From NCBI RefSeq assembly GCF_014640615.1, contig NZ_BMHH01000002.1:62001-126000 (forward strand): DNA of 64,000 nt, in the 5' to 3' direction. Position numbers and translations under genes: made by a program. Under the pieces are notes generated by a model. The model ran no database searches and was not told the DNA's origin. It saw nothing but the letters and a program-made list of their open reading frames with translations. Positions 15,834-32,086 of this stretch are shown here, one piece after another (positions within the stretch are counted from its first letter, which is position 1; every line of letters begins with the position of its first letter). The DNA comes from Paramesorhizobium endophyticum (GTDB lineage Bacteria; Pseudomonadota; Alphaproteobacteria; Rhizobiales; Rhizobiaceae).

Positions 15834-15909
15834 GAGCGCGTAGCTCAGCCGGTAGAGCAACTGACTTTTAATCAGTAGGTCCAGGGTTCGAATCCCTGCG
15901 CGCTCACCA
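15834..15909 (+). tRNA. tRNA-Lys (anticodon TTT)
   Basis: A complete 76-base cloverleaf: acceptor GAGCGCG/CGCGCTC, D arm AGCTCAGCCGGTAGAGC, anticodon loop CTTTTAA with TTT at 15867-15869, T arm with GGTTCGAATCC, discriminator A and encoded CCA. Its 3' half from the anticodon on is the left attachment repeat of the adjacent integrated element, so the element restores an intact tRNA gene. Confidence 0.97.
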
Positions 15910-15910
15910 A
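15867..15910. other. Left attachment site (attL) core
   Basis: 44 bases from TTTAATCAGTAGG through GCTCACCAA, identical to 33804-33847. It begins at the tRNA anticodon and runs one base past the CCA end. Confidence 0.93.
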
Positions 15911-15982
15911 AAACACCAAGAAAATCAATCATTTAGAAATCTCCACCTACTGATTGTTTTGAGGGTTTGCGGTTTGGGCACT

Positions 15983-16009
15983 GTATGGGTACCGGTTTAC
16001 TTGGGTACG
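15983..16009. promoter_or_regulatory. Candidate integrase arm-type sites, left end
   Basis: Two direct copies of the word TGGGTAC (GTATGGGTACC at 15983-15993 and TTGGGTACG at 16001-16009). The same pair, in the opposite order, occurs inside the right end at 33663-33682. They partly overlap the stop codon of the small gene at 15997. Confidence 0.6.
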
Positions 16010-16191
16010 CAATCTGGCAGTGAGTCGAGGTCGCATATACCGAGTTCTGCGGGGTCGAGTTCACGCTCGTCGTCGTCCTCGCTGTCATCCTCGAAATCAG
16101 GGTCGCCGTCGATTTGGTCGAGAAGGGCGATAGCCTCCTCAATCCAGCGTTCAAGCATGAGGCGGCGAAGACGATAAACAGCGCGGGTCAT
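15997..16191 (-). CDS. Small acidic hypothetical protein of the element
   Basis: 64 residues: a basic N-terminal helix (TRAVYRLRRLMLERWIEEAI) followed by a strongly acidic stretch (DGDPDFEDDSEDDDERELDP). It is the last gene of a seven-gene overlapping cluster; its ATG overlaps the previous stop by 4 bases. Similar acidic proteins occur in rhizobial prophages, but no function is known. Charge and length would suit a DNA-mimic or a regulator of a DNA-binding protein, which is only a guess. Confidence 0.65.
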   Translation of the reverse strand: MTRAVYRLRRLMLERWIEEAIALLDQIDGDPDFEDDSEDDDERELDPAELGICDLDSLPDCVPK

Positions 16192-16295
16192 TCATCACCA
16201 CCTTTCCGGCGTGGCAGTGTCCAGATGGATAGCAATGTCAGACCGCGAGCGATGCGAAGGAGAAGGAAGGCAAGGAATATGCGGATGGTAGTCAT
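16188..16295 (-). CDS. 35-residue single-span membrane peptide
   Basis: The ORF encodes MTTIRIFLAFLLLRIARGLT, then LLSIWTLPRRKGGDE. A hydrophobic segment of about 20 residues interrupted by arginines is followed by a basic C terminus. Its start overlaps the preceding gene's stop by 4 bases (ATGA) and its stop overlaps the next gene's start in the same way, which strongly supports translation. It might be a holin-like or anchoring peptide, but it is shorter than known holins. No family is recognised. Confidence 0.6.
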   Translation of the reverse strand: MTTIRIFLAFLLLRIARGLTLLSIWTLPRRKGGDE

Positions 16296-16483
16296 GACCG
16301 CACCTCATCCGGTATGCCCTTGATGAAGATAAATCCGAGGTCGTGATTGATAAGCAGATCGAACCGCATGCCGTGGATTTCCTGCATGAGCGCTGCAAGG
16401 CGGTCGGCAACAATCTGGACTTCCGCCGCCTTGATCTGCGCGTTCAGAAGGGTTTCCGAGAATGGAGAGGTTGCCAGCATCAT
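16292..16483 (-). CDS. Small hypothetical protein of the element
   Basis: 63 residues beginning MMLATSPFSETLLNAQIKAA; predicted helical N-terminal half and a short sheet-forming end (FDLLINHDLGFIFIKGIPDE). The start at 16483 is fixed by the ATGA overlap with the preceding gene; a longer reading to 16570 would run through that gene. Unknown function, part of the overlapping left-end cluster. Confidence 0.65.
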   Translation of the reverse strand: MMLATSPFSETLLNAQIKAAEVQIVADRLAALMQEIHGMRFDLLINHDLGFIFIKGIPDEVRS

Positions 16484-16674
16484 TCGGCCCTCCCTGCTTC
16501 CTCGAGCACCGTATCGCGCTCCTGCATCAAGTTCAGGAGTTTCTCCGCTTGATCGGCATATTCCGGCCACTCCCGTTCAAACAGTTCGAATGCCGCGAAC
16601 TTCTGCCCTTCGTCCAACTTAGACAGCGCCGCCAAGATTTTGATGTTAAGCACATCGTCAGCGGAAAGAGCCAT
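16480..16674 (-). CDS. Small hypothetical protein of the element
   Basis: 64 residues, mostly helical and acidic (MALSADDVLNIKILAALSKL ... ERDTVLEEAGRAE). The start shares one base with the stop of the gene upstream (TAATG) and its end overlaps the next start by 4 bases. Not assigned to a known family. Its position within a coupled cluster near attL suggests an accessory or superinfection-related role, which is inference only. Confidence 0.65.
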   Translation of the reverse strand: MALSADDVLNIKILAALSKLDEGQKFAAFELFEREWPEYADQAEKLLNLMQERDTVLEEAGRAE

Positions 16675-16799
16675 TATGCGTCCTCCGCCGGTTCAAGCCG
16701 ATCCAGCTTGGCGATGAACTGCCACTTCTCAGCTTCGGTCAGCGTCCGCCATTTGGCGAGGAATTTCGCAATGCGCTGCGTTTCGGTCAGAGACTTCAT
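16674..16799 (-). CDS. 41-residue hypothetical protein of the element
   Basis: The ORF reads MKSLTETQRIAKFLAKWRTL and continues to an end at LDRLEPAEDA; two amphipathic helices can be drawn. Start and stop each share one base with the neighbouring genes (TGATG and TAATG), which argues for real, coupled translation. No family is recognised. Confidence 0.62.
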   Translation of the reverse strand: MKSLTETQRIAKFLAKWRTLTEAEKWQFIAKLDRLEPAEDA

Positions 16800-17038
16800 C
16801 ACGCTTCCCTCCCCGGAAAGGTGGAGTTCGACAGAAGCGGGACGCCCAATTCAAGGGCGAGGCTCTCCGCGCGAACCCAACCGACAGGCTTGCATTTGGT
16901 AGTGTCGCGAATTGTCCACGTGTCGTCACCGTTCAGCGTCTCTATGGCGTAGAGCATCCAGCCGCCCTCTTGCGGGTAAGCTGATAACTGGACGGCGACA
17001 GGGCCGCGCGGGCTTCTGAACTGGATTACCTCGCTCAT
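16799..17038 (-). CDS. Small hypothetical protein of the element
   Basis: 79 residues, beta-rich with several aromatic residues (SEVIQFRSPRGPVAVQLSAY, then EGGWMLYAIETLNGDDTWTI). The pattern resembles small phage proteins of unknown function. Its ATG overlaps the stop of the preceding gene by 4 bases and its stop shares one base with the next start. Confidence 0.68.
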   Translation of the reverse strand: MSEVIQFRSPRGPVAVQLSAYPQEGGWMLYAIETLNGDDTWTIRDTTKCKPVGWVRAESLALELGVPLLSNSTFPGREA

Positions 17039-17301
17039 TGCCCGTCCTCCCCATCGCCATCAGACAATGCCGCCGCGCGGCGGGGCAGCAAGTGCGGAAA
17101 CCGCTCTGCGAGAAGGTTAAGAGCTTCTTCCTTCTCCTCTGGGGTATAACCGGCCCAGATGGTCAGAATTTCAACTTCTGTATCGGAAAGGGCGCGACCG
17201 AATTCAGCTGTCATCCTGCCTATCAGAGCGGCGGAATTCTCCGTGCTCCTGGTGTCTTTGGGCAAGCCTTCGGCGGCTGCCGGAATGAGTGTGTTCGGCA
17301 T
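17035..17301 (-). CDS. Hypothetical protein, first gene of the left small-gene cluster
   Basis: 88 residues with a helical middle (SDTEVEILTIWAGYTPEEKE then EALNLLAERFPHLLPRRAAA) and an acidic end. It heads the leftward cluster of seven overlapping genes (17301 to 15997) and lies 120 bases from the divergent XRE repressor, so its promoter is presumably under that repressor's control. Function unknown. Confidence 0.68.
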   Translation of the reverse strand: MPNTLIPAAAEGLPKDTRSTENSAALIGRMTAEFGRALSDTEVEILTIWAGYTPEEKEEALNLLAERFPHLLPRRAAALSDGDGEDGQ

Positions 17302-17421
17302 TTCGTGGCTCCAATTGGTATAGTAACTATGTTATTTGGTTTGTTAACCATAAACGCAGTGCGCGATTGCCGTCAACACTAATTTGTGTATGATACCAAA
17401 ATTAATGGAAATGGAGCACAA
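17302..17421. promoter_or_regulatory. Divergent control region between the small-gene cluster and the XRE repressor
   Basis: AT-rich for this genome. It contains ATAGT-A-ACTAT (17320-17330) and TGGTT-TGTT-AACCA (17337-17350), candidate operators for the adjacent repressor, and GGAG at 17411-17415 as its ribosome-binding site. It is the likely lysogeny-type switch of the element. Confidence 0.5.
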
Positions 17422-17682
17422 ATGCCTATCACTGGTAATCAGATAAGAGCCGCTCGTTCTTTGGCTGGCATGGAGCAAATAGCTCTTGCTGAGAAGGCAG
17501 GCGTGAGCGCGAACACGATCCGAAACATGGAGGCCGCGGGGGCTGACCGAGTTCGTGTTCGCACCGATACGCTGGACGCTGTCACTGACGCCTTAAAGGC
17601 GGCTGGCGTCATTTTTCTTGATGAAGGGGAGAATTCAGTCGGCGGTCCCGGTGTCCGTCTTAAAGCGTCTGAAACGTCTTAA
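17422..17682 (+). CDS. XRE family repressor of the element
   Basis: 86 residues. A Cro/C1-type helix-turn-helix occupies residues 5-40 (ITGNQIRAARSLAGMEQIAL, then AEKAGVSANTIRNMEAAG), and the tail AAGVIFLDEGENSVGGPGVR is the short C-terminal motif common to alphaproteobacterial phage and conjugative-element regulators. The start at 17422 is set by GGAG six to nine bases upstream; an in-frame start at 17386 lacks one. It is divergent from the small-gene cluster and probably controls it. There is no self-cleavage domain, so induction would need another signal or an antirepressor. Confidence 0.85.
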   Translation: MPITGNQIRAARSLAGMEQIALAEKAGVSANTIRNMEAAGADRVRVRTDTLDAVTDALKAAGVIFLDEGENSVGGPGVRLKASETS

Positions 17683-17739
17683 TCAGACGCTTGACTCCAT
17701 CCCGTCCCCTTGCCAATTTGCGCGGAACAGGGGGGCTTC

Positions 17740-18045
17740 ATGAAACGCAGTATTTTAATCGCGGCGGCGCTCTCTGCAATGCCGGCCCTTGCTGCGCCCG
17801 GCGATACCCAGGCGGACAAGGACGCGGCTTGCAAATCGTGGGGTGATTTGGCCGCCGTCATCATGAAGCTCCGCCAGACTGAAGCTCCGATGAGTGAAGC
17901 CATCAAGGGAACGGGCGACGATAGCAGCCGCCGCCTTATCATTGAGGCTTACAAAGAGCCTGCCTATTTATCCGAGGACGGCCAAGCGCGGGCAGTCGAT
18001 AGGTTCCGAAACGAGATTGAGTTGGCGTGCTTCCAATCGCAATGA
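17740..18045 (+). CDS. Small secreted protein carried by the element
   Basis: 101 residues starting MKRSILIAAALSAMPALA, a clean signal peptide with cleavage expected before APGDTQADK. The mature part is about 83 residues, helical, with two cysteines (KDAACKSW near the start, ELACFQSQ at the end) that could form a disulphide. It is preceded by a purine-rich AGGGGGGC. It is on the plus strand after the repressor and may be expressed from the integrated state, as lysogenic-conversion or superinfection-exclusion genes are. Function unknown. Confidence 0.65.
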   Translation: MKRSILIAAALSAMPALAAPGDTQADKDAACKSWGDLAAVIMKLRQTEAPMSEAIKGTGDDSSRRLIIEAYKEPAYLSEDGQARAVDRFRNEIELACFQSQ

Positions 18046-18101
18046 GCGACAAATTCCCGACGCCGCCACGATAAATCGCCACGGTCAACGCAGAAGGCGT
18101 T

Positions 18102-18928
18102 CTCACTGGAAATATTTCCAGTGAGGCGGAAGGGAAACTAGACAAATTTGTCCAGTTTCGTTCCCAAGCTTCGTAACTACCGAAATCCCGGTAGTTTGCC
18201 TCTCCAACTCGGCGGCGAGGCAACAGGCCCAACTGACCCGATAACATCGTGTCTGTTCCATATCCCGAGGTGTCGCAGTTTTGCGTCAAGTTGACGCAAA
18301 ACCCCGTTACGGGAAATTCCCGCAGCGGATCAAGCCTTTGAAATCCTTGATGGCTCCAATTGGAGCCATGTCCCAGGTGGTGCCTTCGGAAACTATGCAA
18401 ATCTGCATAGTTTCGCCCTCAAGTAAAACCGCGGTGATTGTAACCCCTTGTTATTATTAGGCTTGGATCGTATTTCGGCCTGTTTTTCCTGCGATTTCTC
18501 AGAGTTTCCAGCTCGATAATCGCGCGTTTATTTCCGAGGGAGACAAGATCTACCCGAAGGAAATTCAAGTGGCAAACTCTGCCACTCCAACTTTCGCGGA
18601 ACGCAGAACCTCGCCCAAAGTGAAGTCGAAAAGTCTCTGAACCGCATTCAAACTGCACATGAAAACGGTTCAAACGGTGACCGACCGCCGCTAAAAGCTC
18701 AGCAAAATCAACAAATCCAGAAACCAAACGGTATTGGGAGATGAGGTCGCAATGGCCAGCGTCGGCAAGCCGGTAAATGTTCCCGATGGGAACAATAAGA
18801 AGGCGACCTGTGGGACACATTATAAAAACTCAACGCGGCGTAAGTCGCCAAGTTGGCGACACACAAGAGCGCGTGGCCGTGCAGTGGACAAGTTGTCCTT
18901 TGCATAACCTGCCCGGCAGTCAGGTTAT
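18102..18928. repeat. Array of thirteen different short palindromes
   Basis: The 0.9 kb from 18046 to 18961 has no convincing gene. It holds palindromes at 18102-18125 (24 bases, perfect), 18134-18159 (one mismatch), 18175-18196, 18196-18223, 18278-18302 (12-base arms), 18310-18322, 18350-18369 (20 bases, perfect), 18389-18414 (11-base arms), 18568-18586, 18778-18794, 18844-18860, 18886-18898 and 18904-18928. Their sequences differ from one another. Many have an AA-n-TT centre, for example GTCGCCAA-G-TTGGCGAC and GGACAA-G-TTGTCC. The stretch lies where the structural operon and the repressor-side genes converge. Confidence 0.8.
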
Positions 18929-18961
18929 AGGGGTTTGCGCCCGACAAGTTGGCGGACGCAC

Positions 18962-19879
18962 CTACGCCGCTATCTCCGTCGTCACCCGTAGGCCCTGCTC
19001 CCGGAATATGAAATCGAGAACGGGCGGCGAGAGGCGCTTGGGGTATACGCCTTTCTTTGCCTTCCGAACGGTCGTAGAACAAGTGTGGCTGCAAAAATTC
19101 GTATGGTGCCTTTTGGACATGAATCGATCCCCGCACCATTGGCATGTTCGCTCAAACGATAAAACATGGCGATGTGCGAGGGCGCAGCGGGCGCTACAGA
19201 ACTTACCCTGATCGGGGCGTCTGCCCTTGTGCGCCATGAATGATATTCCACAGTGGAGGCATGGCAGTTCCTCCAAGGCTCGATCTCGGTGCTTCTTGTA
19301 GCATGAGGGTGAGCAAAATTTCTCATCGCCTTTGTGGGGCTTGAACCGGACGCCACATTCTCGGCATGAGATAGCTGGATGTTTTGCGCGCCTGATTGTC
19401 TTCCACGCCGCATGGAAAGCTTCGGAAGCGTCACGAACGGTTTCCGCGTCCCGCCGGGTAATAAAGGCTTTCGCGCATTCCTCGGAGCAAAAGCGGGAGC
19501 TTCTCATGCCGCTGCCAAATTCGGTATCGACCGCACCGCCGCACCATTTGCAATTCTCTGCCGGCGTCGTGTAGTCTGGCTGTCCTTGCTCCCAAGTGGG
19601 ACGGCTGTATCCAAGCTTCATTATCGCTGAGGATACCAGATTGGCAGCTTCGCGGTTGGCTCGATCCCATGAATAGCCTTTGAGGCACAAGGCTGAACGG
19701 ATACCGGAAAGCACCGGGCCTTCCTTTTCAAACTGGCTGAACCGCCAGTCGGAAAGAAGGTCCATGATTTTGTTGATGATGTGCTTTCGCTGATCGCCCT
19801 TATAAACGGGGTCGTGAGCTTGCGGCTTGGTCTTGCCTGGGCCGCGTCGATAGGCGTCATATCCTCCCCAGTAGCTCAT
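18962..19879 (-). CDS. Protein with four treble-clef-like zinc knuckles
   Basis: 305 residues. Four repeated CxxC...FCSxxC modules are seen: Cys110/113 with 131/135, Cys172/175 with 189/193, Cys207/210 with 228/232, and Cys246/249 with 263/267. The N-terminal 105 residues are helical and free of such motifs. Treble-clef fingers of this kind are found in HNH-type nucleases and in nucleic-acid-binding phage proteins; no catalytic His-Asn-His set is evident. It is the last gene of the structural operon, coupled to its neighbour by an ATGA overlap. Packaging or transcription roles are possible, but no function can be given. Confidence 0.75.
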   Translation of the reverse strand: MSYWGGYDAYRRGPGKTKPQAHDPVYKGDQRKHIINKIMDLLSDWRFSQFEKEGPVLSGIRSALCLKGYSWDRANREAANLVSSAIMKLGYSRPTWEQGQPDYTTPAENCKWCGGAVDTEFGSGMRSSRFCSEECAKAFITRRDAETVRDASEAFHAAWKTIRRAKHPAISCRECGVRFKPHKGDEKFCSPSCYKKHRDRALEELPCLHCGISFMAHKGRRPDQGKFCSARCALAHRHVLSFERTCQWCGDRFMSKRHHTNFCSHTCSTTVRKAKKGVYPKRLSPPVLDFIFREQGLRVTTEIAA

Positions 19880-20241
19880 CCGAACACCGCATCGAATAAC
19901 TCGGTGGTGAGTTCGCCAGTGGGCTGTGGAACGGCGCTATCGGATTTTCCGACATTGGCCTGCCGCGCATAGAAATGCTCAATATAGGCCGCGTCCATGG
20001 CGCGGATGATGGCGACGTGGTGCGGCTGGATGCTCCAGCGGTTAATATGGGAATATCCCATAATTTCCGTGTAGCTGATCGGGTTCGGCCCATTCATGTG
20101 CCATGTGCGCGTGGCGCTCAGGTCCATGAACCATTCCCAGAAGAGTGCGCCGCCGGGCGATATTATGACGGGCCTGTTCGATGCCAGCGTTTGCTCGAGC
20201 GCGGCAACCATTGTCTTTTCGAGACGGTCTATGGCGCTCAT
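19876..20241 (-). CDS. Phage protein, possible tail-assembly factor
   Basis: 121 residues with a central motif (FWEWFMDLSATRTWHMNGPN, then PISYTEIMGYSH) like that of small proteins encoded beside tail genes in alphaproteobacterial siphophages, where it is often called a tail-assembly chaperone. Here it follows the tape measure rather than preceding it. It shares one base with the tape-measure stop and is coupled by ATGA to the zinc-knuckle gene. A 7-base-arm palindrome at 20046-20062 lies inside the coding region. Confidence 0.6.
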   Translation of the reverse strand: MSAIDRLEKTMVAALEQTLASNRPVIISPGGALFWEWFMDLSATRTWHMNGPNPISYTEIMGYSHINRWSIQPHHVAIIRAMDAAYIEHFYARQANVGKSDSAVPQPTGELTTELFDAVFG

Positions 20242-22193
20242 CAGATCACCCCCCAGGTCTTCGCCTTCTGGCTGTCCCGCTTAAGGCGCATAGGTCCTGT
20301 CTTGTCATACGCCTTGACGGCTTTGCCCGCCGCGCGCGTGCCTTCGCGCTGAGCGATATTCGTCACGAATGCCTCAAAGGTTCCATCGTTGTTGAAGTTG
20401 ACCTCAACGCCCACATCGACTGCCTGCTTACCGGTCCCGCTTCCGCCCTGTCCCAGCATATGGTTCGGCGTGACCTGTGAACCTCGCGGGAGATTGACGA
20501 GCTCGGGCCCTTGCTCTCCAACAATGGCAGCCCCACCAGGAGCGAATGTCGTGCCTCTGGCGTATAGACCAAGGCCGCCGCCGCCGAACCCCGCCGCAAG
20601 CTGACCGCTGTTGGCAAAGGGCGAGGAACCACCGCCGAATATGCCGCTGAACATGCTTCCGAACCCGCCGCCGCCGAAAAGGGCGTCAAGGCCGCTGTTG
20701 ATGAGCCGGTCAGCAAGCCGCCCGAGTGCATCGGCTAATACGTCGCTCGCCTTCGCACCGTTTAGCAGCCCCGAAACCAGCGTACCGGCAAATTCGCGGC
20801 CCGCATCGTTCAGTTCCTCAAGCTGCTCCTGCGTTTTCTCGTAGGCCTCGTTCTGCCGGTAGGTGCTTTCGACAAGCGCCTCTATCTTGTCCCGCTCATC
20901 TTGCGTGGCAGCAGCTCCAGCATTGCGAAGGGCGGTCAACTTTTCCTTCTCGACCGCACTCTTGCCAACAAGCGAGGCTTCGAACTCCAGTTCCGCGATT
21001 AGGTCTTTGACGGCCTTTCGCTCGCGCTCCGCCTCACGGGCAGCCTTCTCGCGCTCACGATCCGCTGACGTGCGGCCCCCGCCCCCCTTGCCGGTGCTGG
21101 GCGGCACGTAAGGCGTGACAGGCGGCTTGTCCGGGATAGGAGGAGTGTCAATCATCGCCTTGTCCCGGCGAGCCAGTTCCTCCTTAATTTTCGCAATCTC
21201 GGCATTGTTCTTTTCGATGGTTTTGCGGGCGGGTGCGTCGAACCAGCCGCCAAGCTTTCCCGCCGCCGCATCGTTTTCCCGCTGCAACAGGTTCATCTGC
21301 GATTTGAGATGTTCCGTGTTCCGGTTTTCGAACTTCTGAAAAATTGAGATGAACTGAGCCAGCGCTTCATAAGCCTCAACAATGGCACCCTTCAGCGCAG
21401 AACCAACCGTTGTTGATACCTGGTTGAACTTCTTATCAATCTCGGCTGCTTTAACGATAAATTTCTCATCGAATACCGCGCCCATCTTGTCGGCTTCGTT
21501 TATGGTGTCGGTGATCCCCTCGCGGCCCTGCTCGATGAGGCGGACGAACTGTTCGCCGCCCTGGCCTCCTAGAAGCTCATCGAATATCCGCACCCCGGCC
21601 GCGGTATCCTTGAGCCGCTTCGTCCGGTCGATAAGCTCCAGCATCAGGGCAGACGGGTCTTTGATCCGCTCCTTCACTTCCGCTGGCGACATACCAAGGC
21701 GCTGGAAGCTCTCTGCGGCGCTGCCCTTGCCGGTCTGGATATATTCGTCGGCGCGAAGGTTCAGTTCCTTGAAGCCGTCAATCAACGCGTCGATGCCGAT
21801 TTTGTTCTGATCCGCGACGTAGCGCCAGCGCTGGAAATCCTCGACATTGATCCCAGCGGTTTTCGCCTCGCGGCCAAGTTCCGCAAAGGATGCGGTCATA
21901 TCCTTGACCGCCCCGGCGATGCCCATCACGCCGCCCGCAGCAATGCCACCGATGATCCCGCCGGCAAACGCCTTGCCGAAATTCCCCACCTTGGTGCCGA
22001 CCGTCGCAAGAGACTGATTGATCCGGTTGGTAGACAGCGCCGCGTCCCGCTCCATGTCTCGAAGCGCGGAACGACTGTTCTTCTTCATCCCGGCATAGGC
22101 GGCATTGGCAACGCCCTGCGCCTTCTTCATCCCCTTTTCGAGTTCGCTGATACGGGCCTCGATAGAGACCATGAGAACTTCTTCGTTTGCCAT
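20241..22193 (-). CDS. Phage tail tape measure protein
   Basis: 650 residues. The N terminus is a long helical region (SIEARISELEKGMKKAQGVA), followed by a Gly/Ala-rich hydrophobic segment (GIIGGIAAGGVMGIAGAV) and coiled coil rich in Lys/Glu/Arg (about 360-480). The C terminus has a Gly-rich stretch and the motif GAAIVGEQGPELVNLPRGSQ, characteristic of lambda-type tape measures. The protein fixes tail length; 650 residues would predict a rather short tail. The start at 22193 shares one base with the terminase stop (TGATG). Confidence 0.88.
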   Translation of the reverse strand: MANEEVLMVSIEARISELEKGMKKAQGVANAAYAGMKKNSRSALRDMERDAALSTNRINQSLATVGTKVGNFGKAFAGGIIGGIAAGGVMGIAGAVKDMTASFAELGREAKTAGINVEDFQRWRYVADQNKIGIDALIDGFKELNLRADEYIQTGKGSAAESFQRLGMSPAEVKERIKDPSALMLELIDRTKRLKDTAAGVRIFDELLGGQGGEQFVRLIEQGREGITDTINEADKMGAVFDEKFIVKAAEIDKKFNQVSTTVGSALKGAIVEAYEALAQFISIFQKFENRNTEHLKSQMNLLQRENDAAAGKLGGWFDAPARKTIEKNNAEIAKIKEELARRDKAMIDTPPIPDKPPVTPYVPPSTGKGGGGRTSADREREKAAREAERERKAVKDLIAELEFEASLVGKSAVEKEKLTALRNAGAAATQDERDKIEALVESTYRQNEAYEKTQEQLEELNDAGREFAGTLVSGLLNGAKASDVLADALGRLADRLINSGLDALFGGGGFGSMFSGIFGGGSSPFANSGQLAAGFGGGGLGLYARGTTFAPGGAAIVGEQGPELVNLPRGSQVTPNHMLGQGGSGTGKQAVDVGVEVNFNNDGTFEAFVTNIAQREGTRAAGKAVKAYDKTGPMRLKRDSQKAKTWGVI

Positions 22194-23806
22194 CAGGCCA
22201 CGCTCCATTCGTCTATGTCGCCGGTGAAAGTGTCGTAGGAGGAAACCCCGCTATCGCCTGTTGCGGCGCGGCCCACGGCCATGGCGCAAGCCACGGCTCC
22301 GTCAATGCGGTCCCGGCTCTTGCCCTTGTGGAATGACCTGTTCCCGGCCTTGTCCGTCTCGACGGCGATATTGTCGAAGTGCCAGCGAAGGATAGGATGG
22401 CCCCCATGGGTGAAGCGACCGCCGATAATGGCGCGCTCCAGTTCCTTGACGGCTGGTGCCATCGTTACCCACCCCTGCCGCATTTCGACGGCGGGGAGGC
22501 CGTCTTCCAAGAGGTTGTTCAGCATGTTCCGGGCGAGGTGAGGGTCGAAGGCGATTTCGCGGACATTGTAGGTCGCGCATATTTCCCGGATCGTGTCTTC
22601 CACGATGCGGAAATCCACCACGTTCCCCGGCGTGGGGATGATCAAGCCGTCCTCGGCCCATTGCGGATAGGGAACTCCGTCCTTGTCGGCCCGGCGGCGA
22701 AGACTGTCTTCCGGGCAGAAGAACCATGGATGGACGCTATAGCCGCTCTCAGGATCGCCCCACGCGGCCACGACGGCGGTTAGGTCGGAATTGCTGGAAA
22801 GGTCCACGCCAAGCCAGCACGGCGTTTGCTCGGCCTCGAAGTGGGAAATTCCCACTTCGGCCCGGCCTTGATCGTAGATCGACATATCCACGAACGGCGA
22901 TGCCGAATGGTCGAGCCACACATTGAGATTGTATTGCAGGAAGCTATCTCGGTCGGACGGCGAATTGATCGCTTTTCGCGCCTTGTCGCGGTAGCTCTCA
23001 AGGTCGGGATAACCGTGCTTCATGCCTGGATTGATGGCGAACCATAGGGCTTCGTCCTTCCAGTCGTCATCCTTCTCGGCCATGAAGATGACTGGGAGCG
23101 TTGCAGGATCGTCGATTTCGCCCTTCTGCACCTTGATTGCGTATTCGACGGTTTTCCATGCAAGGTTTTCTTGCCCGCGCCCTGATGTGGTGGCGACGAT
23201 CAGGAGTGTGCCGGGAACCTTCACCAGCGCGCTGTCGAGGGCTTCCCATTGCTTTTGTCCGGCGCGGCCCTCCCAGGCGTGAACCTCATCGGCAATCACC
23301 ACGTTCGGCGTCTTGCCGTGCTGCACCTTGCCATCGGAAGCCACGGCGATATAGCGCGAGCGCTCCTTCCGGAAGCTGATGGTCGAGGTGTATTCTCGGA
23401 CGCTCAAATGCTTCGACATGCGCGGATCGCTCTGCACGATCATCGCGGCTTCGTTGAAAAGCTCCAGCGCCTGGACATGGGCAGATGCCGCCGACACTGT
23501 AAGGCCGCCGGGCAGGCGCTCAGGCCCCATGAGGTGCAGAAGCGTGATTGCCGCGCATAGGCTTGTCTTTCGGTTTCCACGCGGCAGCAACAGCACGACG
23601 CGGCGCACTACCCGCGAGCCGTCAGGATGGCGCGGGCCATAGATGCGGCGGATCACCTTCTCCTGCCAATCGTCAAGCTGGAAAGGATGGCCAGGAGCCG
23701 GGTTCTTTGGATGCTTCAGCCTGCGCAGCCATTGAACGGCGCGCTCCCCGTGGCCGTGCGGATCGTCGATTTCTTCGGGCCGGTCAATCCAGGAGGGAGT
23801 CATCAT
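22193..23806 (-). CDS. terL: Terminase large subunit
   Basis: 537 residues, the DNA-packaging motor and nuclease. The ATPase domain has a deviant Walker A PRGNRKTS at 75-82 and Walker B VVIADEVHAW with Asp173-Glu174. The nuclease domain shows LGVDLSSNSDLTA and the late acidic RIDGAVA. The start at 23806 is preceded by GAGGTG with good spacing; GTG at 23815 is an alternative. It overlaps the small-subunit gene by about 23 bases. An 11-base-arm palindrome at 22837-22859 falls within the VGISHFE codons. Terminase genes usually come first in the structural operon; here they come near the end, just before the tape measure. Confidence 0.93.
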   Translation of the reverse strand: MMTPSWIDRPEEIDDPHGHGERAVQWLRRLKHPKNPAPGHPFQLDDWQEKVIRRIYGPRHPDGSRVVRRVVLLLPRGNRKTSLCAAITLLHLMGPERLPGGLTVSAASAHVQALELFNEAAMIVQSDPRMSKHLSVREYTSTISFRKERSRYIAVASDGKVQHGKTPNVVIADEVHAWEGRAGQKQWEALDSALVKVPGTLLIVATTSGRGQENLAWKTVEYAIKVQKGEIDDPATLPVIFMAEKDDDWKDEALWFAINPGMKHGYPDLESYRDKARKAINSPSDRDSFLQYNLNVWLDHSASPFVDMSIYDQGRAEVGISHFEAEQTPCWLGVDLSSNSDLTAVVAAWGDPESGYSVHPWFFCPEDSLRRRADKDGVPYPQWAEDGLIIPTPGNVVDFRIVEDTIREICATYNVREIAFDPHLARNMLNNLLEDGLPAVEMRQGWVTMAPAVKELERAIIGGRFTHGGHPILRWHFDNIAVETDKAGNRSFHKGKSRDRIDGAVACAMAVGRAATGDSGVSSYDTFTGDIDEWSVA

Positions 23807-24158
23807 CTTCGTCACCTCGGATCGATGGGCGGGAACGGGATACGGGCGTCAGGCCAAGTTCGGCAGCCAGCAGGCGGGCGGATTGCATGGCCTTGTCCTG
23901 AACGCGGAACAGCTTCACCATGAGTTCGGGGTCGTCACAGCCCTGCATTTGGGCCTCGACCTCGCGGACGCGGCCAATGGAAATGCAATAGTTCTCCAGC
24001 GAGCCAAGGTCGCCACGGGTCAGAATGCGGCGCTCGACAAGTTCGGGCATGACGCGCCGCCATTCGGCCTTGGCGTCCTTGGAGAGCCAGGAGGGTGCCG
24101 CCGGGACGCGCTTGAGGCCGGAATTATCCACGACAAGGTGAGGCTTCGTTCCCTTCAT
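23784..24158 (-). CDS. terS: Terminase small subunit (P27 family)
   Basis: 124 residues, with the P27-type core PSWLSKDAKAEWRRVMPELV and the helix containing LENYCISIGRVREVEAQM. The small subunit recognises the packaging site and loads DNA on the large subunit. The ATG overlaps the preceding gene's stop by 4 bases. The acidic C-terminal GDEDDDSLLD is encoded within the overlap with terL. Confidence 0.85.
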   Translation of the reverse strand: MKGTKPHLVVDNSGLKRVPAAPSWLSKDAKAEWRRVMPELVERRILTRGDLGSLENYCISIGRVREVEAQMQGCDDPELMVKLFRVQDKAMQSARLLAAELGLTPVSRSRPSIRGDEDDDSLLD

Positions 24159-24469
24159 GCCTGCCTCACACAGCGGATTTCCAGCCCCACGCGACGGCCG
24201 ATTTCTTTCAGTTCCTTGACATTGAACGGCTCGCCCTGGAACACCACACGGTGGGATGTAGCCACGCCATCGATGTAGTGAGTACGGAAAATGATGATGG
24301 TCTCGTCCAGTGCGCCATAGGCCCGGATGAATTCTTCCGTGGACGCCTGCACGATCTGGGCTCGCAAGTCCGCGAACTTCGACCAGACGAAGGTAACGCC
24401 GCCATGGCCGTCGATGACTTCCTTGCCCTCCTCGATGGTAATCAGGCGGTCCAGCTTGCCGGCTCTCAT
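24155..24469 (-). CDS. Phage head-tail adaptor (head closure) protein
   Basis: 104 residues, almost all beta: MRAGKLDRLITIEEGKEVID ... HRVVFQGEPFNVKELKEIGR. This matches the SPP1 gp16 / head-tail adaptor fold that closes the portal channel. The start at 24469 is set by the ATGA overlap with the preceding gene. Confidence 0.82.
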   Translation of the reverse strand: MRAGKLDRLITIEEGKEVIDGHGGVTFVWSKFADLRAQIVQASTEEFIRAYGALDETIIIFRTHYIDGVATSHRVVFQGEPFNVKELKEIGRRVGLEIRCVRQA

Positions 24470-24879
24470 GCTACCTCCTGAACGATGATCCTCACGGTCA
24501 CGACGCCGTGGCTTGTTTCGCCGTCTGGATCGCGCAGAATGCGGGTGCTGGTGACGTGGTTGTCCACACAATGGAAGCGGCTGTCAGCCGTATCCAAACG
24601 CCACCTCAGCGCCGCTCGGACTGCCCCGGCGATGGCCTTACAGCCCACCGTGCTAGGCTCGCGCTTCCACACATGCAGATCGAACCAGATATGGTTCAGC
24701 GTCCGGGCGATGCTGTCGCCCTGATCGACGGTTTGCGCCTCGCCTATGAGAATGCACGGATCGACAATCGGCCTCTGGTTCTTGTCTAGGATATGCGAGG
24801 CTGGGACCAGCGCGGTCACAATGGGCTCAGAAATGAGCCGGTCGCGGATGGCCTTCTGGGCTGCGAGGTCAGCGCTCAT
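24466..24879 (-). CDS. Tail completion protein (DUF3168 family)
   Basis: 137 residues opening MSADLAAQKAIRDRLISEPI with the later conserved IWFDLHVWKREPST strand. DUF3168 proteins cap the head-proximal end of siphophage tails. It overlaps the stop of the gp10-like gene by 4 bases. Confidence 0.8.
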   Translation of the reverse strand: MSADLAAQKAIRDRLISEPIVTALVPASHILDKNQRPIVDPCILIGEAQTVDQGDSIARTLNHIWFDLHVWKREPSTVGCKAIAGAVRAALRWRLDTADSRFHCVDNHVTSTRILRDPDGETSHGVVTVRIIVQEVA

Positions 24880-25328
24880 TTGCCCCAATCCTTTTTCACG
24901 GCGCGGGTGATGGCGCTCTTGATGGCGCGCTCGGCCTTCGGGCGGCGCTCGCGGAAGGTCGGCCAAAAGAACGGCTGGGCCGGACCTATGCCGGATGGTT
25001 CGCCCGTAGTCTTAACCGTCCGCTCTTTCGTGCCGTATTCGACCAGATGAGCATAGCGCACGTCCTTGTTGCCAGCCGTTATCGCCGCTGTGGTTTCAGG
25101 GATGACCATTTCGCCGCCTGGCTGCGAATAGGGAGGCGTGTTGGAATTGGGCGGCGTAACAACGATGCTGTCACGAAGCGCCCCGCTATCGACGGGGACT
25201 TTCTTCTTCATCTGCTTCGCCATCAGTTCAGCCTGGCGCACCACTGCTTTCACTGCGGCCTCCTTCACCCGTCCGGGGATAGCCGAAAGCCGGTTAGTAA
25301 GCCGCTGCAAACCGCCATCGTCAGCCAT
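24876..25328 (-). CDS. HK97 gp10-like tail-associated protein
   Basis: 150 residues with the gp10 family features: long N-terminal helix (LQRLTNRLSAIPGRVKEAAV), the motif KKVPVDSGALRDSI and a C-terminal AHLVEYGTKERT ... PAQPFFWPTF. It serves the head-tail joint and tail completion in HK97-like phages. Its start shares one base with the gp6-like stop (TGATG). Confidence 0.85.
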   Translation of the reverse strand: MADDGGLQRLTNRLSAIPGRVKEAAVKAVVRQAELMAKQMKKKVPVDSGALRDSIVVTPPNSNTPPYSQPGGEMVIPETTAAITAGNKDVRYAHLVEYGTKERTVKTTGEPSGIGPAQPFFWPTFRERRPKAERAIKSAITRAVKKDWGK

Positions 25329-25648
25329 CAGAAGCTCCAATCTCGGTATTCGTTGACGATCTGGCGCACGCCGAACGGCACCTCCTGAGCGTTCACGCCG
25401 ACGATGGACGCTTCCCGGTTCTCATACCAATGCGCGGCAAGCTGATAGATGGCCTCGATGAGCGACGGCGGAACGGGCTGTTGCTCGGGAGCGCCGTAGG
25501 TTTCATCGATCCGAAACCCAAGCAGGCGCTCGACGTGATCCAGCGCGGCGGCAAGTTTCCGCTCAAGCAGTGCGTCGTCATTCACGCCCATGTCGGGGGT
25601 GAAATTCAGTTGCGCCTTCAGCCCTTCAAGCGTTATGGTGTCGACCAT
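25328..25648 (-). CDS. Head-tail connector (phage gp6-like)
   Basis: 106 residues, all-helical gp6/gp15-type connector: ITLEGLKAQLNFTPDMGVND, then KLAAALDHVERLLGF, LIEAIYQLAAHWYENREAS and the end FGVRQIVNEYRDWSF. The ring of this protein sits below the portal. An 88-base gap with no gene separates it from the tube-like gene upstream. Confidence 0.87.
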   Translation of the reverse strand: MVDTITLEGLKAQLNFTPDMGVNDDALLERKLAAALDHVERLLGFRIDETYGAPEQQPVPPSLIEAIYQLAAHWYENREASIVGVNAQEVPFGVRQIVNEYRDWSF

Positions 25649-25736
25649 TCCTTGAAAACTCCAATTTCCGCAAATCTTGCGCTGTTGCCCCCCCGCCGGT
25701 CCCCTGTGAGGCTGGAAAGTCTGAACCCGCCCCCGG

Positions 25737-26204
25737 TCATGCCGTCCTCACGATGTTGGATTGCATCAGGAGGCCGAACGACCAGCACACCACGCTATTG
25801 GCCTCATCCATCACTTGGCTTGCCGATACGATATGGGCGATGAACTGCCGCTCTGATCCATCAGCAAGCGTGAGCATGAAGGCATAGGGATCAACGGCGC
25901 TCTCTGCGGTGAGCATGACTGCCTGTCCCGTATCCTGGCTATCCTGCGCCACCACCACCTCCATGGTGTAGGCAGGGCGAACCGCTTTCTCATGGTTCGG
26001 GATAGGTGGATTGTCCGGGTCGGTCGTATTGGGCAGTGTGGTATCGATGGTCTGCCATTCGCCACTGGTGCGGCCAAGGCTGGATAGGCCATTGACCTGC
26101 ACCCATGCCTCGCCCGCGAAGGCAGACGCATCGACCTGCTGGGCTAACCAGCCTGACCGAACCGCCCCTATGAACAGGGTCGTGCCTGACGTGGCGAAGA
26201 ACAT
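25737..26204 (-). CDS. Tail-tube-like protein, second paralogue
   Basis: 155 residues with the same plan as the next gene upstream: FATSGTTLFIGAV at the start, a WVQVNGLSSLG strand, a central immunoglobulin-like sheet and the C-terminal LLMQSNIVRTA (against LGINSNIVRQN in its partner). Major tail proteins that polymerise into the siphophage tube have this size and fold. The middle has diverged (TTLPNTTDPDNPPIPNHEKA), so the pair may form a tube plus a terminator, or a decorated tube. It lies 3 bases after its paralogue. Confidence 0.72.
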   Translation of the reverse strand: MFFATSGTTLFIGAVRSGWLAQQVDASAFAGEAWVQVNGLSSLGRTSGEWQTIDTTLPNTTDPDNPPIPNHEKAVRPAYTMEVVVAQDSQDTGQAVMLTAESAVDPYAFMLTLADGSERQFIAHIVSASQVMDEANSVVCWSFGLLMQSNIVRTA

Positions 26205-26207
26205 GGT

Positions 26208-26693
26208 TTACGATCCCGCCACGACTGGGTTCTGTCTGACGATGTTGCTGTTGATGCCAAGCGTAGCATTCAGCTTCGCCACGTTGTTGGCTGTGTCGAG
26301 ATGCTCGGCAGCGCTCATCACCTTGGCGATGAAGTAGCGTTCCGATGGTGATCCCCCAACAGGAGCATCATTGAAGACGACACGGAACGCATAATCGTGA
26401 ATGGTCCTCTCCGCTGCGATGAGCGCAATCTGGCCATCGTCGGCGTAGTCGATGCCAAGCACCATCTCTAGGTTTCCAGCGTTTCGTGTTCCCTTTAACT
26501 TCTGGGTTCGGTTGCGGCCTATGTCGTCAAAGGTGATCTCGGTTGCAGTGTCGCCAAAGGTGCCGACGCTCTCAAGATTGTTGATCTGGGTCCATGTCTG
26601 GCCTGCGAAGTCTTCGGCAACGAAATCGGTGGGCTTGGCCTCAAGCACCTCACCGATGTAGACCTTCGCGCCAGCGGTTGCGAAAATGGGCAT
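26208..26693 (-). CDS. Tail-tube (major tail) protein, first paralogue
   Basis: 161 residues: MPIFATAGAKVYIGEV, WTQINNLESVGTFGDTATEI, DIGRNRTQKLKGTRNAGNLE and DDGQIALIAAERTIHDYAFR, a pattern matching phage tail-tube proteins. It is the better match of the two paralogues to a canonical tube subunit. It follows the HNH gene by 3 bases and precedes the second paralogue by 3 bases. Confidence 0.8.
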   Translation of the reverse strand: MPIFATAGAKVYIGEVLEAKPTDFVAEDFAGQTWTQINNLESVGTFGDTATEITFDDIGRNRTQKLKGTRNAGNLEMVLGIDYADDGQIALIAAERTIHDYAFRVVFNDAPVGGSPSERYFIAKVMSAAEHLDTANNVAKLNATLGINSNIVRQNPVVAGS

Positions 26694-26696
26694 GGG

Positions 26697-27053
26697 TTAA
26701 CTCTTTCTCAGATTGCGCCGCTCTTCCGATTGCTTGGCGCTGGAATGACAAGGCGTGCATAGGGGCTGCCAGTTGGCGCGGTTCCAGAACAGCGCCTGGT
26801 TCCCCTTATGCGGCTGGATATGATCGACCAGCGTGGCCGGAGCGCCGCAACGGCGGCATGATGGATAGGTGGCGAGGAAAGCTTTGCTCTCCCGCTCCCA
26901 TTCGGCGGTGTAGCCACGCTGGCGGGCTGTCGGTCGCTTCTTGTCGAAGCGGGCTTTGCGCTCCCTCTCGCGCGCGGCGATATAGGCGCACTGCTCACCC
27001 GTCAGATGAGCCTTGCCGCAATATCCGCAGACTGAGGGAGCGCGAACCGGCAT
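26697..27053 (-). CDS. HNH endonuclease
   Basis: 118 residues with two zinc-binding CxxC pairs, CRRCGAPATLVDHIQPHKGN and LCTPCHSSAKQ, surrounding the His-Asn-His-type active site (DHIQPHKGN, NWQPLCTPCH). An extra CGYCGKAHL knuckle opens the protein. HNH enzymes next to terminase genes assist cos cleavage in HK97-like phages; here it sits between capsid and tube genes. The start shares one base with the capsid stop (TAATG). Confidence 0.88.
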   Translation of the reverse strand: MPVRAPSVCGYCGKAHLTGEQCAYIAARERERKARFDKKRPTARQRGYTAEWERESKAFLATYPSCRRCGAPATLVDHIQPHKGNQALFWNRANWQPLCTPCHSSAKQSEERRNLRKS

Positions 27054-28621
27054 TACGAACCGGCTCCCGCCGACTTGAGGAGAACCGTGGCCTCGGGCAA
27101 CACCACGCCACCCCCAACACGGCGGCGGGCCCGGATTTTAACGATGCCGTTATCGGCACCGGTAAACGGGTCAATCATGATCTCCGTCGCGATGCGGTCT
27201 ACAATTTGGTAGGTCTTGGCGATGTCACCGAATACCGCCTGAACGCCTGTCGTGGATGGACCTCCCGCCACGTCCAGTTCGTCCGCATCATAGACAGGCC
27301 GTCCCAAAAGGGTCGCCGGCTGACCATTGGCGAGGCTGTCGCTCCAGATGGTGCCGCGAGACGTGGAAGCGTCGGCAGCCTTGCGGATCGCGCCTTGAGT
27401 GCGGCGGTTGAGCATCCATGCGCCGTTGCGGGCGTATGCGGCGGGAAGCCTATAAAAGAGGTCGATAATGTCCTCTATCAGATTGCCCCCGGCGGCAATG
27501 CCGTCGAAGGCGTCAACATCGTCCAGCAGGCCAACGGGCTTCCCATTGCCGTCCCCAGTAAGAAATGCCGTGGCCTCGCCGCCTGCGAACTGCGTGGATA
27601 TTTGCGCCGAAAGATAGCTGTTCAGGTCAATGAAGCTGTCATCAAGCAGTTGCTGGCTGACGGGAACAACAACGGAATATTCGTGGACGCCAATCTTCTG
27701 CTGCTCGAAGGTCGGCTCGCTCGAAGGCCGCGAGCCTGTCTCCGTAACCCAGTTTCCCTGGAGGCGAGTACCAAGTTTCGGCAGCCAGATTTCAGTGGTG
27801 CCAATCGCGACACTCGATGCAAGCTGGCGCATCGGGTTGATTTCAACGAGCTTTTCAATGATCTGCGTCGAAATCGTCGGCGCGGTGACATAACCACCAG
27901 CCGAACCAGCGCCAAGATTGAGGGTTTTCCTGTCCTCGTTGTCGAGGGCGTGAACGCCTCCACGCAGATATGTGCGGAGCGCCTTCTCCTCGGCTTTGGC
28001 GTCGGCAGTCTCATCGTCGGCCTTACCGCTCGGGCGATTGAGCTTCGCCTCGATGCCGTCGATACGGTCGCCAAGCTTGGCGAGCGTTGTCACCGAATTC
28101 TCTAGGTTGCTCATTTTGGTTGTGATGACCGCAAGCGCGGCTTCGTGCTCTTCGGGCATGTTGCCCTCCTTTCCGGCCTGCGCGGCCTTTGCGGACGTAA
28201 TCCGCGCGCCGGGATGGCACGGGACCGCCACAATCGAGATTTCCATCAAATCGACTTCGGAGATGGTGCGACCGCCGCCCCTACGTGCTACGGCCTTCCG
28301 AGTGGCGAAACCGATGCTTAGGCCGGTGACTGCCTTCTCGCGGACCATGGCCCGGACCTCCGCCGCCCGCGCTACATCGTTGACGAGAAGACGGCCCCGG
28401 ACCTCCAAGCCCTTGGCGGTTTCGGTGATGCTGTCCCACACCCCAACGGTTTCGCGCTGATCGTGTCCGAACAGCATGGGTATGGGAGCGGACGCACTCT
28501 TGAAAGCATGGGGTAGGATTTCGTCGCCTACCATGTCGGGCGAGCCGAACGGCCAAGCGATGCCGGTGACCTCTCCCGCGTCCGATACGGTGAAGGAAGA
28601 TTTGAATTCAAGCCGGTCCAT
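27053..28621 (-). CDS. Prohead protease-major capsid fusion (HK97 type)
   Basis: 522 residues. Residues 1-150 are an HK97-type prohead protease with His53 (MLFGHDQRETVG), Ser102 (TGLSIGF) and Glu127 (DLMEISIVAVP) as the likely catalytic set. From 155 on it is a delta-domain coiled region and then the HK97 capsid fold (LNLGAGSAGGYVTAPTIST ... VSQQLLDDSFIDLNSYLSAQ ... FLTGDGNGKPVGLL). The two functions are usually separate genes. A strong ribosome-binding site and ATG occur in frame at the junction (see separate entry), so free capsid could be made too. The ATG at 28621 shares one base with the upstream stop; GTG at 28624 is an alternative. Confidence 0.9.
   Translation of the reverse strand: MDRLEFKSSFTVSDAGEVTGIAWPFGSPDMVGDEILPHAFKSASAPIPMLFGHDQRETVGVWDSITETAKGLEVRGRLLVNDVARAAEVRAMVREKAVTGLSIGFATRKAVARRGGGRTISEVDLMEISIVAVPCHPGARITSAKAAQAGKEGNMPEEHEAALAVITTKMSNLENSVTTLAKLGDRIDGIEAKLNRPSGKADDETADAKAEEKALRTYLRGGVHALDNEDRKTLNLGAGSAGGYVTAPTISTQIIEKLVEINPMRQLASSVAIGTTEIWLPKLGTRLQGNWVTETGSRPSSEPTFEQQKIGVHEYSVVVPVSQQLLDDSFIDLNSYLSAQISTQFAGGEATAFLTGDGNGKPVGLLDDVDAFDGIAAGGNLIEDIIDLFYRLPAAYARNGAWMLNRRTQGAIRKAADASTSRGTIWSDSLANGQPATLLGRPVYDADELDVAGGPSTTGVQAVFGDIAKTYQIVDRIATEIMIDPFTGADNGIVKIRARRRVGGGVVLPEATVLLKSAGAGS
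28157..28171 (-). promoter_or_regulatory. Internal ribosome-binding site and start in the protease-capsid gene
   Basis: On the minus strand AAGGAGG (28171-28165) lies 5 bases before an in-frame ATG (28159-28157), codon 155 of the fusion. Initiation there would give a 368-residue capsid protein without the protease domain. Confidence 0.65.
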
Positions 28622-28749
28622 CACTCAGCCCCCAGAAACGCCGCGGTGACTTGGGAAGTCATCACAATGCCGCCTTGGATTGCCGCCGCGGCCATGAGAA
28701 GCATGACAAGCAAGCCGAACGCGCCAATGAGAAATTGCTTGAAGCTCAT
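28621..28749 (-). CDS. 42-residue single-span membrane protein
   Basis: MSFKQFLIGAFGLLVMLLMA followed by AAAIQGGIVMTSQVTAAFLG: one long hydrophobic helix with a short charged N terminus. It overlaps the stop of the preceding gene by 4 bases and the capsid start by one base. It might be a holin-type peptide, although a single span between portal and capsid genes is not the usual lysis context, and no endolysin is present. No family is recognised. Confidence 0.65.
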   Translation of the reverse strand: MSFKQFLIGAFGLLVMLLMAAAAIQGGIVMTSQVTAAFLGAE

Positions 28750-29141
28750 TGCGCGCTCCCCGAACGGAAGGCGCTGCGGTCGGCGGCAAAGGCGTCCACC
28801 TGGGCCTGTATCCACGTCCCGGCGGACAGGACGCGCACCACGTTGCGGTGATTGAACGGAACTGGCTGGCCGTTTTCCAATATCTCCCAGCGCTGCACGA
28901 GGCGGGCGAGGCAGCCGATCCGGGCGCGCTCACGGTCTCCCGCTGAAACCGTGCCGTCCGAGCGGGTGCGATCGATAAGCTCCTCGCTCATGGCAATGCG
29001 CGCGTCGTGCGCCGTCTTGCTGTCCGGCCCGACGATCCATAATTTGATGCCGGTCGGCTTGCCCGTCACGGGATCGACAAGCTCAAGCTCTCGGCCACGG
29101 TCCTGGTCGGCAATGTTGGAGAGGATGTCACTCAGATCCAT
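28746..29141 (-). CDS. Phage structural-operon protein of unknown function
   Basis: 131 residues, MDLSDILSNIADQDRGRELE ... DPVTGKPTGIKLWIVGPDSK ... RLVQRWEILENGQPVPFNHR ... VLSAGTWIQAQVDAF. The pattern of a short sheet followed by helices and WEILENGQPVPF resembles tail-assembly chaperones of alphaproteobacterial siphophages, but here it directly follows the portal. The start at 29141 lies 14 bases inside the portal gene; longer readings to 29273 have no ribosome-binding site. Confidence 0.65.
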   Translation of the reverse strand: MDLSDILSNIADQDRGRELELVDPVTGKPTGIKLWIVGPDSKTAHDARIAMSEELIDRTRSDGTVSAGDRERARIGCLARLVQRWEILENGQPVPFNHRNVVRVLSAGTWIQAQVDAFAADRSAFRSGSAQ

Positions 29142-30399: not shown

Positions 30400-30415
30400 G
30401 ACCTCGAAGATGAGC

Positions 30416-30440
30416 GGGAATGGTGCTAAAATCCATTCCC
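30416..30440. promoter_or_regulatory. Inverted repeat upstream of the portal gene
   Basis: GGGAATGG and its complement (30433-30440) flank 9 bases, 17 bases before the portal start, next to an AT-rich stretch at 30441-30478 that could hold the structural-operon promoter. Candidate site for an element-encoded activator or repressor. Confidence 0.5.
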
Positions 30441-30478
30441 TGAAATGCAGTTATTCTTTTTAAAATCAATTAGTTGTT

Positions 30479-30885: not shown

Positions 30886-30951
30886 GGCGTCCCTCCGCGA
30901 TTTTCCGGGGAAGTATCCCCCGGGTAAAAGGCAACAAAAACAACATAAAAC

Positions 30952-31089: not shown

Positions 31090-31118
31090 TGAATTTCCTG
31101 CACCTAGGCGGCTCAATC

Positions 31119-31418: not shown

Positions 31419-31470
31419 GGCTGCTGCTCCGCTTACTGCTGCGCGCTGTAGGGGTATGGTAGAATAAGGA

Positions 31471-32084: not shown

Positions 32085-32086
32085 CG

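Follow-up and report, generated by a model that had tools for sequence, protein, structure and literature searches.

A prophage-like element of Paramesorhizobium endophyticum carries an array of short palindromes, each different from the next. We favor the reading, at a probability of roughly 55%, that the array is a bank of predicted binding sites for many different ParB-type phage proteins, which the resident prophage would titrate or exploit. By ParB-type we mean proteins with a ParB_N domain, a helix-turn-helix (HTH) and, in many of them, an MT-A70 DNA methylase. Alignment shows that several dyads, both here and in two related arrays, closely copy over 26-37 bases putative sites within ParB-like genes, and that these sites differ in predicted specificity.

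An array of dissimilar palindromes in an 18-kb element

The stretch of DNA that we analysed, called the window here, is 64,000 nucleotides long. The element, the array and the features within it are listed below, with the strand given where one is assigned.

15867..33847, prophage-like element carrying the array, in tRNA-Lys; its ends are identical 44-base repeats, 15867-15910 and 33804-33847 (44/44)
18102..18960, palindrome array, between convergent genes 17740-18045 (+) and 18962-19879 (-)
18102..18125, palindrome CTCACTGGAAATATTTCCAGTGAG, 12+12; no cognate protein found
18134..18159, palindrome GAAACTAGACAAATTTGTCCAGTTTC, 12/13 pairs, even-length
18175..18196, palindrome AACTACCGAAATCCCGGTAGTT, 8+8
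18278..18302, AANTT dyad GTTTTGCGTCAAGTTGACGCAAAAC, core CGTC
18304..18328, imperfect AANTT dyad CCGTTACGGGAAATTCCCGCAGCGG, core CGGG
18350..18369, palindrome ATGGCTCCAATTGGAGCCAT, 10+10, even-length
18389..18414, palindrome GAAACTATGCAAATCTGCATAGTTTC, 11+11
18427..18533, minus strand, phage DUF1376 gene fragment, 107 bases that share 77% likeness with a section of such a gene from a Pseudochrobactrum plasmid
18568..18586, dyad AGTGGCAAACTCTGCCACT, core GGCA, one mismatch; best library match 21/27 to L578, with 8/400 controls equally good
18767..18799, plus strand, piece with TGTTCCCGATGGGAACA, 29/33 bases like a linker (KPVNVPxGNNK) encoded by a gene from a different genome within the family (L128)
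18836..18873, plus strand, dyad GTCGCCAAGTTGGCGAC with non-symmetric flanks, core CGCC; 29/29 with ParB-like gene L123 (over 18836-18864) and 35/37 with L545
18880..18905, minus strand, dyad with GGACAAGTTGTCC, core GGAC; 25/26 with ParB-like gene L127; orientation opposite to the 18836..18873 piece
18904..18928, palindrome ATAACCTG..CAGGTTAT, without an AANTT centre
18936..18960, imperfect AANTT dyad TGCGCCCGACAAGTTGGCGGACGCA, one half-site CGAC and the other CGCC; without a specific ParB match
22837..22859, minus strand, AANTT dyad CGAAGTGGGAAATTCCCACTTCG in terL; no specific ParB match

The element is 18 kb long and encodes an integrase, portal, capsid-protease, terminase, tape measure and tail chaperone; this naming covers part of the gene set, with head, terminase and tape-measure genes among those scanned. 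Because it spans only 18 kb and no tail-fibre or lysis gene was named among the genes scanned, it may be a reduced phage or a helper-dependent one. Both genes flanking the array end toward it, with palindromes 3' of each, and a small HTH gene (17386-17682) adjoins it. Some searches for relatives of the neighbouring 305-aa and 101-aa proteins came back empty, and others gave, the window's own copies aside, two and three weak relatives. Two such weak relatives, L002 and L003, were scanned and had no palindrome cluster.

The original prediction that this stretch is rich in palindromes with individual arms holds. There are 16 inverted repeats inside 18102-18928 and 19 in 17900-19300, no two of them alike. 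Under a strict scan (arms of at least 7, loop of at most 6), 8 of the 57 palindromes in the window fall in this 0.83 kb. When comparing the 855 bases of 18102-18956 to 500 dinucleotide shuffles of the same sequence, the check that the prediction had named, we found 8 palindromes scoring at least 6 (shuffled mean 0.54, maximum 3) and 5 scoring at least 8 (shuffled mean 0.05, maximum 1). The array is also the densest 1-kb interval in 794 kb of its own genome (contig C2 plus 400 kb of C1). These data indicate a palindrome density far above both shuffled sequence and host DNA.

The AA-n-TT centre that had been ascribed to several of the palindromes applies to part of the set. It is strict at, for example, 18278, 18304, 18844, 18880 and 18936; other palindromes have the looser centres AAATC, AACTC, AATT or AAATTT, and those at 18196-18223, 18638-18672, 18778-18794 and 18904-18928 lack it. 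Two palindromes said to lie in coding DNA were confirmed, one in the tail-chaperone gene (20046-20062) and one in terL (22837-22859). The terL dyad is missing from aligned terL relatives, which differ from the window there by substitution, with no insertion. The terL relative L099 has its own, different AANTT dyad (ACTGCGGAAATTCCGCAGT, at 4728-4746), which lies within a few codons of where the window's terL carries one, also with no insertion.

Operators of the prophage's own regulators would fit palindromes that lie beside a small HTH gene, the product of 17386-17682 being one such regulator. However, one regulator needs one sequence, and both arms and cores differ within the array, which makes this very unlikely and the least probable of the readings that we weighed. 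A single shared operator was rejected outright because the arms differ. Terminators were likewise rejected for the array as a whole; some genome-wide matches to GTCGCCAANTTGGCGAC look like plain terminators. Elsewhere in the element, near the integrase-side genes, a second and tighter palindrome group at 31008-31075 (CGTTACCGGTAACG twice, CGTCACGCGTGACG and CTGTCACGTGACAG) may be an operator region. Among host hairpins on contigs C1 and C2 (5-base loops, stem of at least 7), 12 have the loop ACAAG/CTTGT, some 50-fold more than expected, and these hairpins are probably a host repeat family.

Linker dyads and helix residues in ParB-type genes

In ParB_N-HTH genes of alphaproteobacterial phages, with or without an MT-A70 methylase part, an AANTT dyad lies in the linker directly upstream of the HTH, with varying arms and reading frames. 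ParB relatives were gathered without choosing them by dyad, through flanking peptide patterns and a genome search; from the viral search the best 80 of 255 relatives (79 loci) were used. The 109 ParB loci (L552-L660) gave 71 distinct linkers that could be read, 25 that misfit the motif used and a remainder of duplicates. A palindrome score of at least 6 was reached by 59 of the 71 linkers versus 69 of 1102 equal-length windows within 600 bases on either side, and a score of at least 8 by 45 of 71 versus 7 of 1102. The set was seeded from one class, six A1 sequences sharing the core CGCC, and the ranking of relatives used their similarity to L201 with its linker; other classes still came up despite this seed.

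The two arms of the linker dyads change together. Among 47 distinct 27-mers, 88.8% of cells were paired (shuffled 59.2), 134 cells were changed on both sides (shuffled 40.9; 0 of 500 shuffles as high) and covariation was 0.666 (shuffled 0.166; slid at most 0.141). The number of pairs with a change on both sides, taken alone, was 10 of 11 and not beyond shuffles (58 of 500 as high).

We compared the dyad bases with three residues of the helix motif TG-x-p1-x-R-x-[IV]-p2-p3-D. The comparison drew on 97 linker-helix rows, including pattern-fetched loci and leaving out the window's own genome; 90 rows have an AANTT-type dyad, giving 62 distinct dyad-helix combinations. Seven rows were set aside: three likely chance frames, L641 without a palindrome, and L558, L581 and L624, whose centres are slightly different and which fit p2 and p3. 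Dyad position 6 is C:G in 43 of 43 combinations with Q or E at p2 and G:C in 19 of 19 with R; arginine facing guanine is a common recognition code. Position 3 is C:G in 59 of 59 combinations with R at p3 and A:T in 3 of 3 with L or K. The p1 residue fits its dyad base in 56 of 62, using residue classes that were set after the core and residue classes had been seen. The classes are crossed: by (p1,p2), (S,Q) goes with CGCC, (D,Q/E) with CGAC, (S,R) with GGCC and (D,R) with GGAC, and L at p3 gives CGCA and GGCA. Each base thus follows its own residue, and the crossing speaks for what would be direct contacts.

This correspondence is also seen on a tree of 58 rows, one of its branches very long, that was built from the protein with linker and HTH left out. 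The tree needs 9 changes at p2, 8 of them forced by well-supported branches. Matching base changes accompany p2 in 8 of 8 tree pairs (P = 0.008), which are not certainly eight separate mutations because the linker and the start of the HTH are exchanged as a cassette between close relatives (L568, L610). For p1, 6 pairs go the same way, 0 go the opposite way and 1 shows no difference (P = 0.03); for p3, 4 of 4 agree, too few for testing. At the outer arm positions 7, 11 and 12, at most about 2 of 8 go along with p2. Since the inner bases change with the HTH helix residues, and do so on a tree built without the site and the HTH, the linker dyad is most likely the binding site of the very protein that it helps to encode. 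Across the ParB set the outer arms keep their symmetry, yet at these positions they do not follow the helix, and the symmetry may come from another DNA-contacting part or from a copying mechanism.

The proteins carry a ParB_N (CTPase-type) domain, with L289 above and L217 below the Pfam cut-off. Hits of profile A1 fall on Noc, ParB, Spo0J and KorB chains and are, with few exceptions, confined to the N-terminal part. The several site copies per replicon that characterize parS were not found: at most one perfect AANTT dyad lies around each ParB gene in 14 stretches from 9 genomes, by a test (arms of at least 7, G at position 5) that saw the dyad in 4 of the 9 and would miss imperfect ones.

These results bear on whether the palindromes act as folded structures. 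Stem-loops working as RNA (in 3' end protection or attenuation) or as single-stranded DNA would fit the low folding energies of the array, which have z-scores of -6.8 for RNA of the plus strand, -7.6 for RNA of the minus strand and -7.2 for DNA (20 shuffles each). They would also fit the one to three AANTT hairpins that follow an apparent major capsid gene in L069, L070, L087 and L088. However, dyad mismatches in the ParB set are no commoner as G-T (9) than as A-C (11), and the inner bases follow the HTH helix. In Rfam searches, only tRNAs reached a gathering score; at the array no family did so, and six weak matches in 18000-19000 all fell below it. We regard folded structures as improbable, and RNA hairpins were rejected as the main reading for want of a G-T excess. 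The original prediction had offered three ideas, single-strand initiation hairpins for replication, a bank of sites for different DNA-binding proteins and structures for packaging, and had suggested selection on foldability rather than on one sequence. The bank is supported, since base-residue covariation ties AANTT dyads to ParB-type HTHs and each array holds several classes, and none of the present results speaks for replication hairpins or packaging. Selection on foldability is not needed for the inner dyad, where the bases follow the recognition helix and G-T pairs do not exceed A-C.

A second ParB-HTH-methylase family has TGGGGAANTTCCCCA directly after the HTH, in genes of G141, G118, G198 and Agrobacterium phage Rivra. 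The Rivra gene is annotated as a methyltransferase, and TGGGGAANTTCCCCA is the only AANTT dyad with arms of at least 6 in the 44 kb Rivra genome. In Mesorhizobium phage vB_MseS-P1, an imperfect palindrome lies at the same place in an IME4-like methylase gene; the neighbouring sister ParB gene has no palindrome with a score of at least 5. Among GGGG-class places outside G022, only 2 of 5 lie beside such an HTH; three genome places with this dyad, in L682, L684 and L686, do not. The second-family homologues L690 and L691 gave no reading with the motif used. Dyads with TGGGGAANTTCCCCA occur in the L174 and L226 arrays described below, and L088 has it as GTGGGGAATTTCCCCAC.

Near-copies of gene-borne dyads in the arrays

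To place the array among others, palindromes per 400 bases were counted in 496 loci, 5.4 Mb in all, a set in which many loci had been picked out by dyad pattern. The densest were L226 (7), the window and L481 (5 each) and ten loci with 4, including L174 and L210; the L481 set is without AANTT centres. At least three AANTT dyads cluster in the window, L088 and L174, and also in L194, L210, L226, L233, L372, L474, L489 and L514, a number that says nothing on frequency because many of the loci were fetched by dyad pattern. L514 is the same locus as L174, and L194 and L210 lie in or beside ParB-like genes. By neighbourhood, such arrays are rare: a cluster was found in 1 of 16 tape-measure neighbourhoods fetched (G022/L174) and in 1 of 80 terL relatives (L088, three dyads). 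The capsid-gap hairpins of L087 and L088 differ by changes on both stem sides.

Two of these arrays, those of L174 and L226, share the mixed makeup of the window's. In Rhizobium skierniewicense (L174), seven AANTT dyads and an imperfect eighth seen by eye occupy 220 bases, downstream of a gene whose tape-measure product has 46% identity with that of the window. L226 has seven dyads by scan, and about ten by eye, in 400 bases; roughly 1 kb away is a partial terminase gene, apparently of the same family. In both, cores and arms vary from dyad to dyad as in the window, several specificity classes are mixed and palindrome counts are above all shuffles. The genes on either side converge on the array in L174 and point away from it in L226.

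We compared 68 gene-borne dyads to 17 array and terL elements, outer arms included, and 9 of the 17 matched one, a match being beaten or equalled by at most 15 of 400 random-arm controls. The matching elements are 18577, 18852 and 18892 in the window, 9823, 9875, 9988 and 10019 in L174, and 9994 and 10246 in L226. The 8 without a match are 18289, 18316, 18948 and terL 22848 in the window and four of L174, counting 9960, which was scored off-centre. In the window's array, 3 of the 6 dyads tested, which were the odd-length AANTT ones, beat nearly all controls. These three are its only palindromes with a specific gene-borne match; the even-length ones and those without AANTT have no partner.

The best matches extend past the symmetric part. 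The 35/37 match to L545 takes in non-symmetric flanks, and the central part of the piece shared with L123 is also found in L122, L124 and L125. As for the dyad at 18568..18586, the ParB gene L588 combines the same core, GGCA, with R and L in its helix. No ParB gene with the core CGTC of 18278..18302 was found; TGCGTCAANTTGACGCA has 6 viral matches, 0 of them beside a ParB-type HTH. In the R. skierniewicense array lies ACGTGGTGGACAAATTGTCCGTGACG; its 25/26 match ACGTGGCGGACAAATTGTCCGTGACG lies in a ParB-like gene of the same contig, at a distance of about 63 kb. The flanks of this pair are not symmetric, which argues for common descent and not chance symmetry. That the same dyad occurs in viral contig L629 suggests that the R. 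skierniewicense gene is prophage-borne. One L226 dyad matches L688 at 26/27.

The window's own genome has no such same-genome partner site. No full-length ParB of either family was found in it: three matches cover the ParB_N part only, and the second family gave none. DNA searches with the array in phages and plasmids found no relative spanning most of it and one solid piece, the DUF1376 fragment (18427-18533). Hits to P1 kilA (E 0.02 to 0.07) reflect one palindrome matching a stretch of kilA, and TGGCAAANTTTGCCA in viral contigs has arm extension at chance (1.52 vs 1.5 of 6). Gene-context tallies by a crude ORF caller were dropped, as spurious ORFs dominated them.

The same matches could arise by passive capture, in which ParB-type sites were picked up within short phage-gene pieces at a non-coding spot by illegitimate recombination, for instance at protein roadblocks, and are useless there. 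The pieces are short, lie in both orientations and are mixed with other gene fragments such as that of DUF1376, the array is absent from most relatives, and capture accounts for the same facts without any benefit. It fits less well with copied pieces that keep mostly the dyad, its symmetry intact and the surrounding gene gone, and with mixed-class arrays near the same structural genes in two relatives, though their flanks differ in direction. On balance we consider capture without function less likely than the bank reading, but a serious rival to it.

Tiny mobile palindromic elements, inserting into permissive linkers and gaps in the manner of Rickettsia palindromic elements or REPs, would explain a dyad that sits at one linker with differing arms and reading frames, and a 23-29 base unit found repeatedly, within ParB contexts and outside them. 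Mobility is not required for the linker site, which the base-residue rule explains, and the search for a second array copy in the window's own genome returned the array itself only, in place of the many near-identical copies of REP- or Rickettsia-type families, so that mobility is very improbable. According to the portions of the literature available on Rickettsia palindromic elements, REPs and repetitive hairpin-forming elements, the likeness lies in short palindromes within coding linkers or gaps, and the difference in that those form repeated families whereas each member here differs. Near-identical long palindromes around CGACCCGTCGCCAANTTGGCGACGGGTCG were seen on several contigs of Nocardioides pelophilus (L441, L502, L516, L521 and L522).

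Putative foreign ParB sites in an integrated element

A site within the gene of its own ParB has a precedent in Bacillus subtilis, where a chromosomal parS lies inside spo0J; the phage genes would share that arrangement and differ from it in sequence and protein architecture. In the available part of a study of ParB and Noc, a few changes within the DNA-binding domain, R173 to Q and G201 to R, switch the palindrome bases that are read (PMC7383237). Here too, single residues would set the bases read, as judged by covariation. That work, in the same part, concerns chromosomal parS and NBS, whereas we describe natural phage proteins with AANTT-centred dyads in their own genes (PMC7383237).

SGI1 offers a precedent for the array. 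According to the accessible text of one report, SGI1 carries parS-like sites that bind the ParB of its helper, an IncC plasmid (PMC10954446). Like SGI1, the element described here is integrated and bears near-copies of another element's putative ParB sites, and, as with hijacked or decoy sites of the SGI1 kind, no full-length cognate ParB was found in the carrier genome. Unlike SGI1, which in that text has one specificity, two sites and a plasmid parABS, the arrays hold many predicted specificities each, and the proteins are phage ParB-HTH-methylases (PMC10954446). Nothing on such arrays was found in the literature searched, whose scope left most subscription-journal papers outside.

Under the favored reading of the array as a bank of sites, ParB-type proteins would bind its dyads as dimers, as base-residue covariation leads us to infer. 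With less assurance, we propose that the prophage keeps foreign sites because they let it titrate or exploit ParB-type proteins that other phages make in the cell they share; the benefit of titrating or using rival proteins is suggested by SGI1, which does so with the IncC plasmid's ParB in the accessible part of that report. Because a protein's predicted site adjoins its own HTH codons, specificity and site would travel as one cassette that can be copied as a unit. A more tentative proposal, which we hold at well below even odds, is that the array is a multi-specificity collection of ParB landing sites, each copied as 26-37 bases from the methylase gene of a rival phage, that catches those proteins in co-infection.

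If the bank reading is true, the rule linking helix residues to dyad bases would tell which phage protein an array site serves, and hence which rivals the prophage has met. Each phage ParB-methylase protein would also gain a predicted binding site, located in its own gene, and the idea that prophages compete for partition-type proteins could be put to the test.
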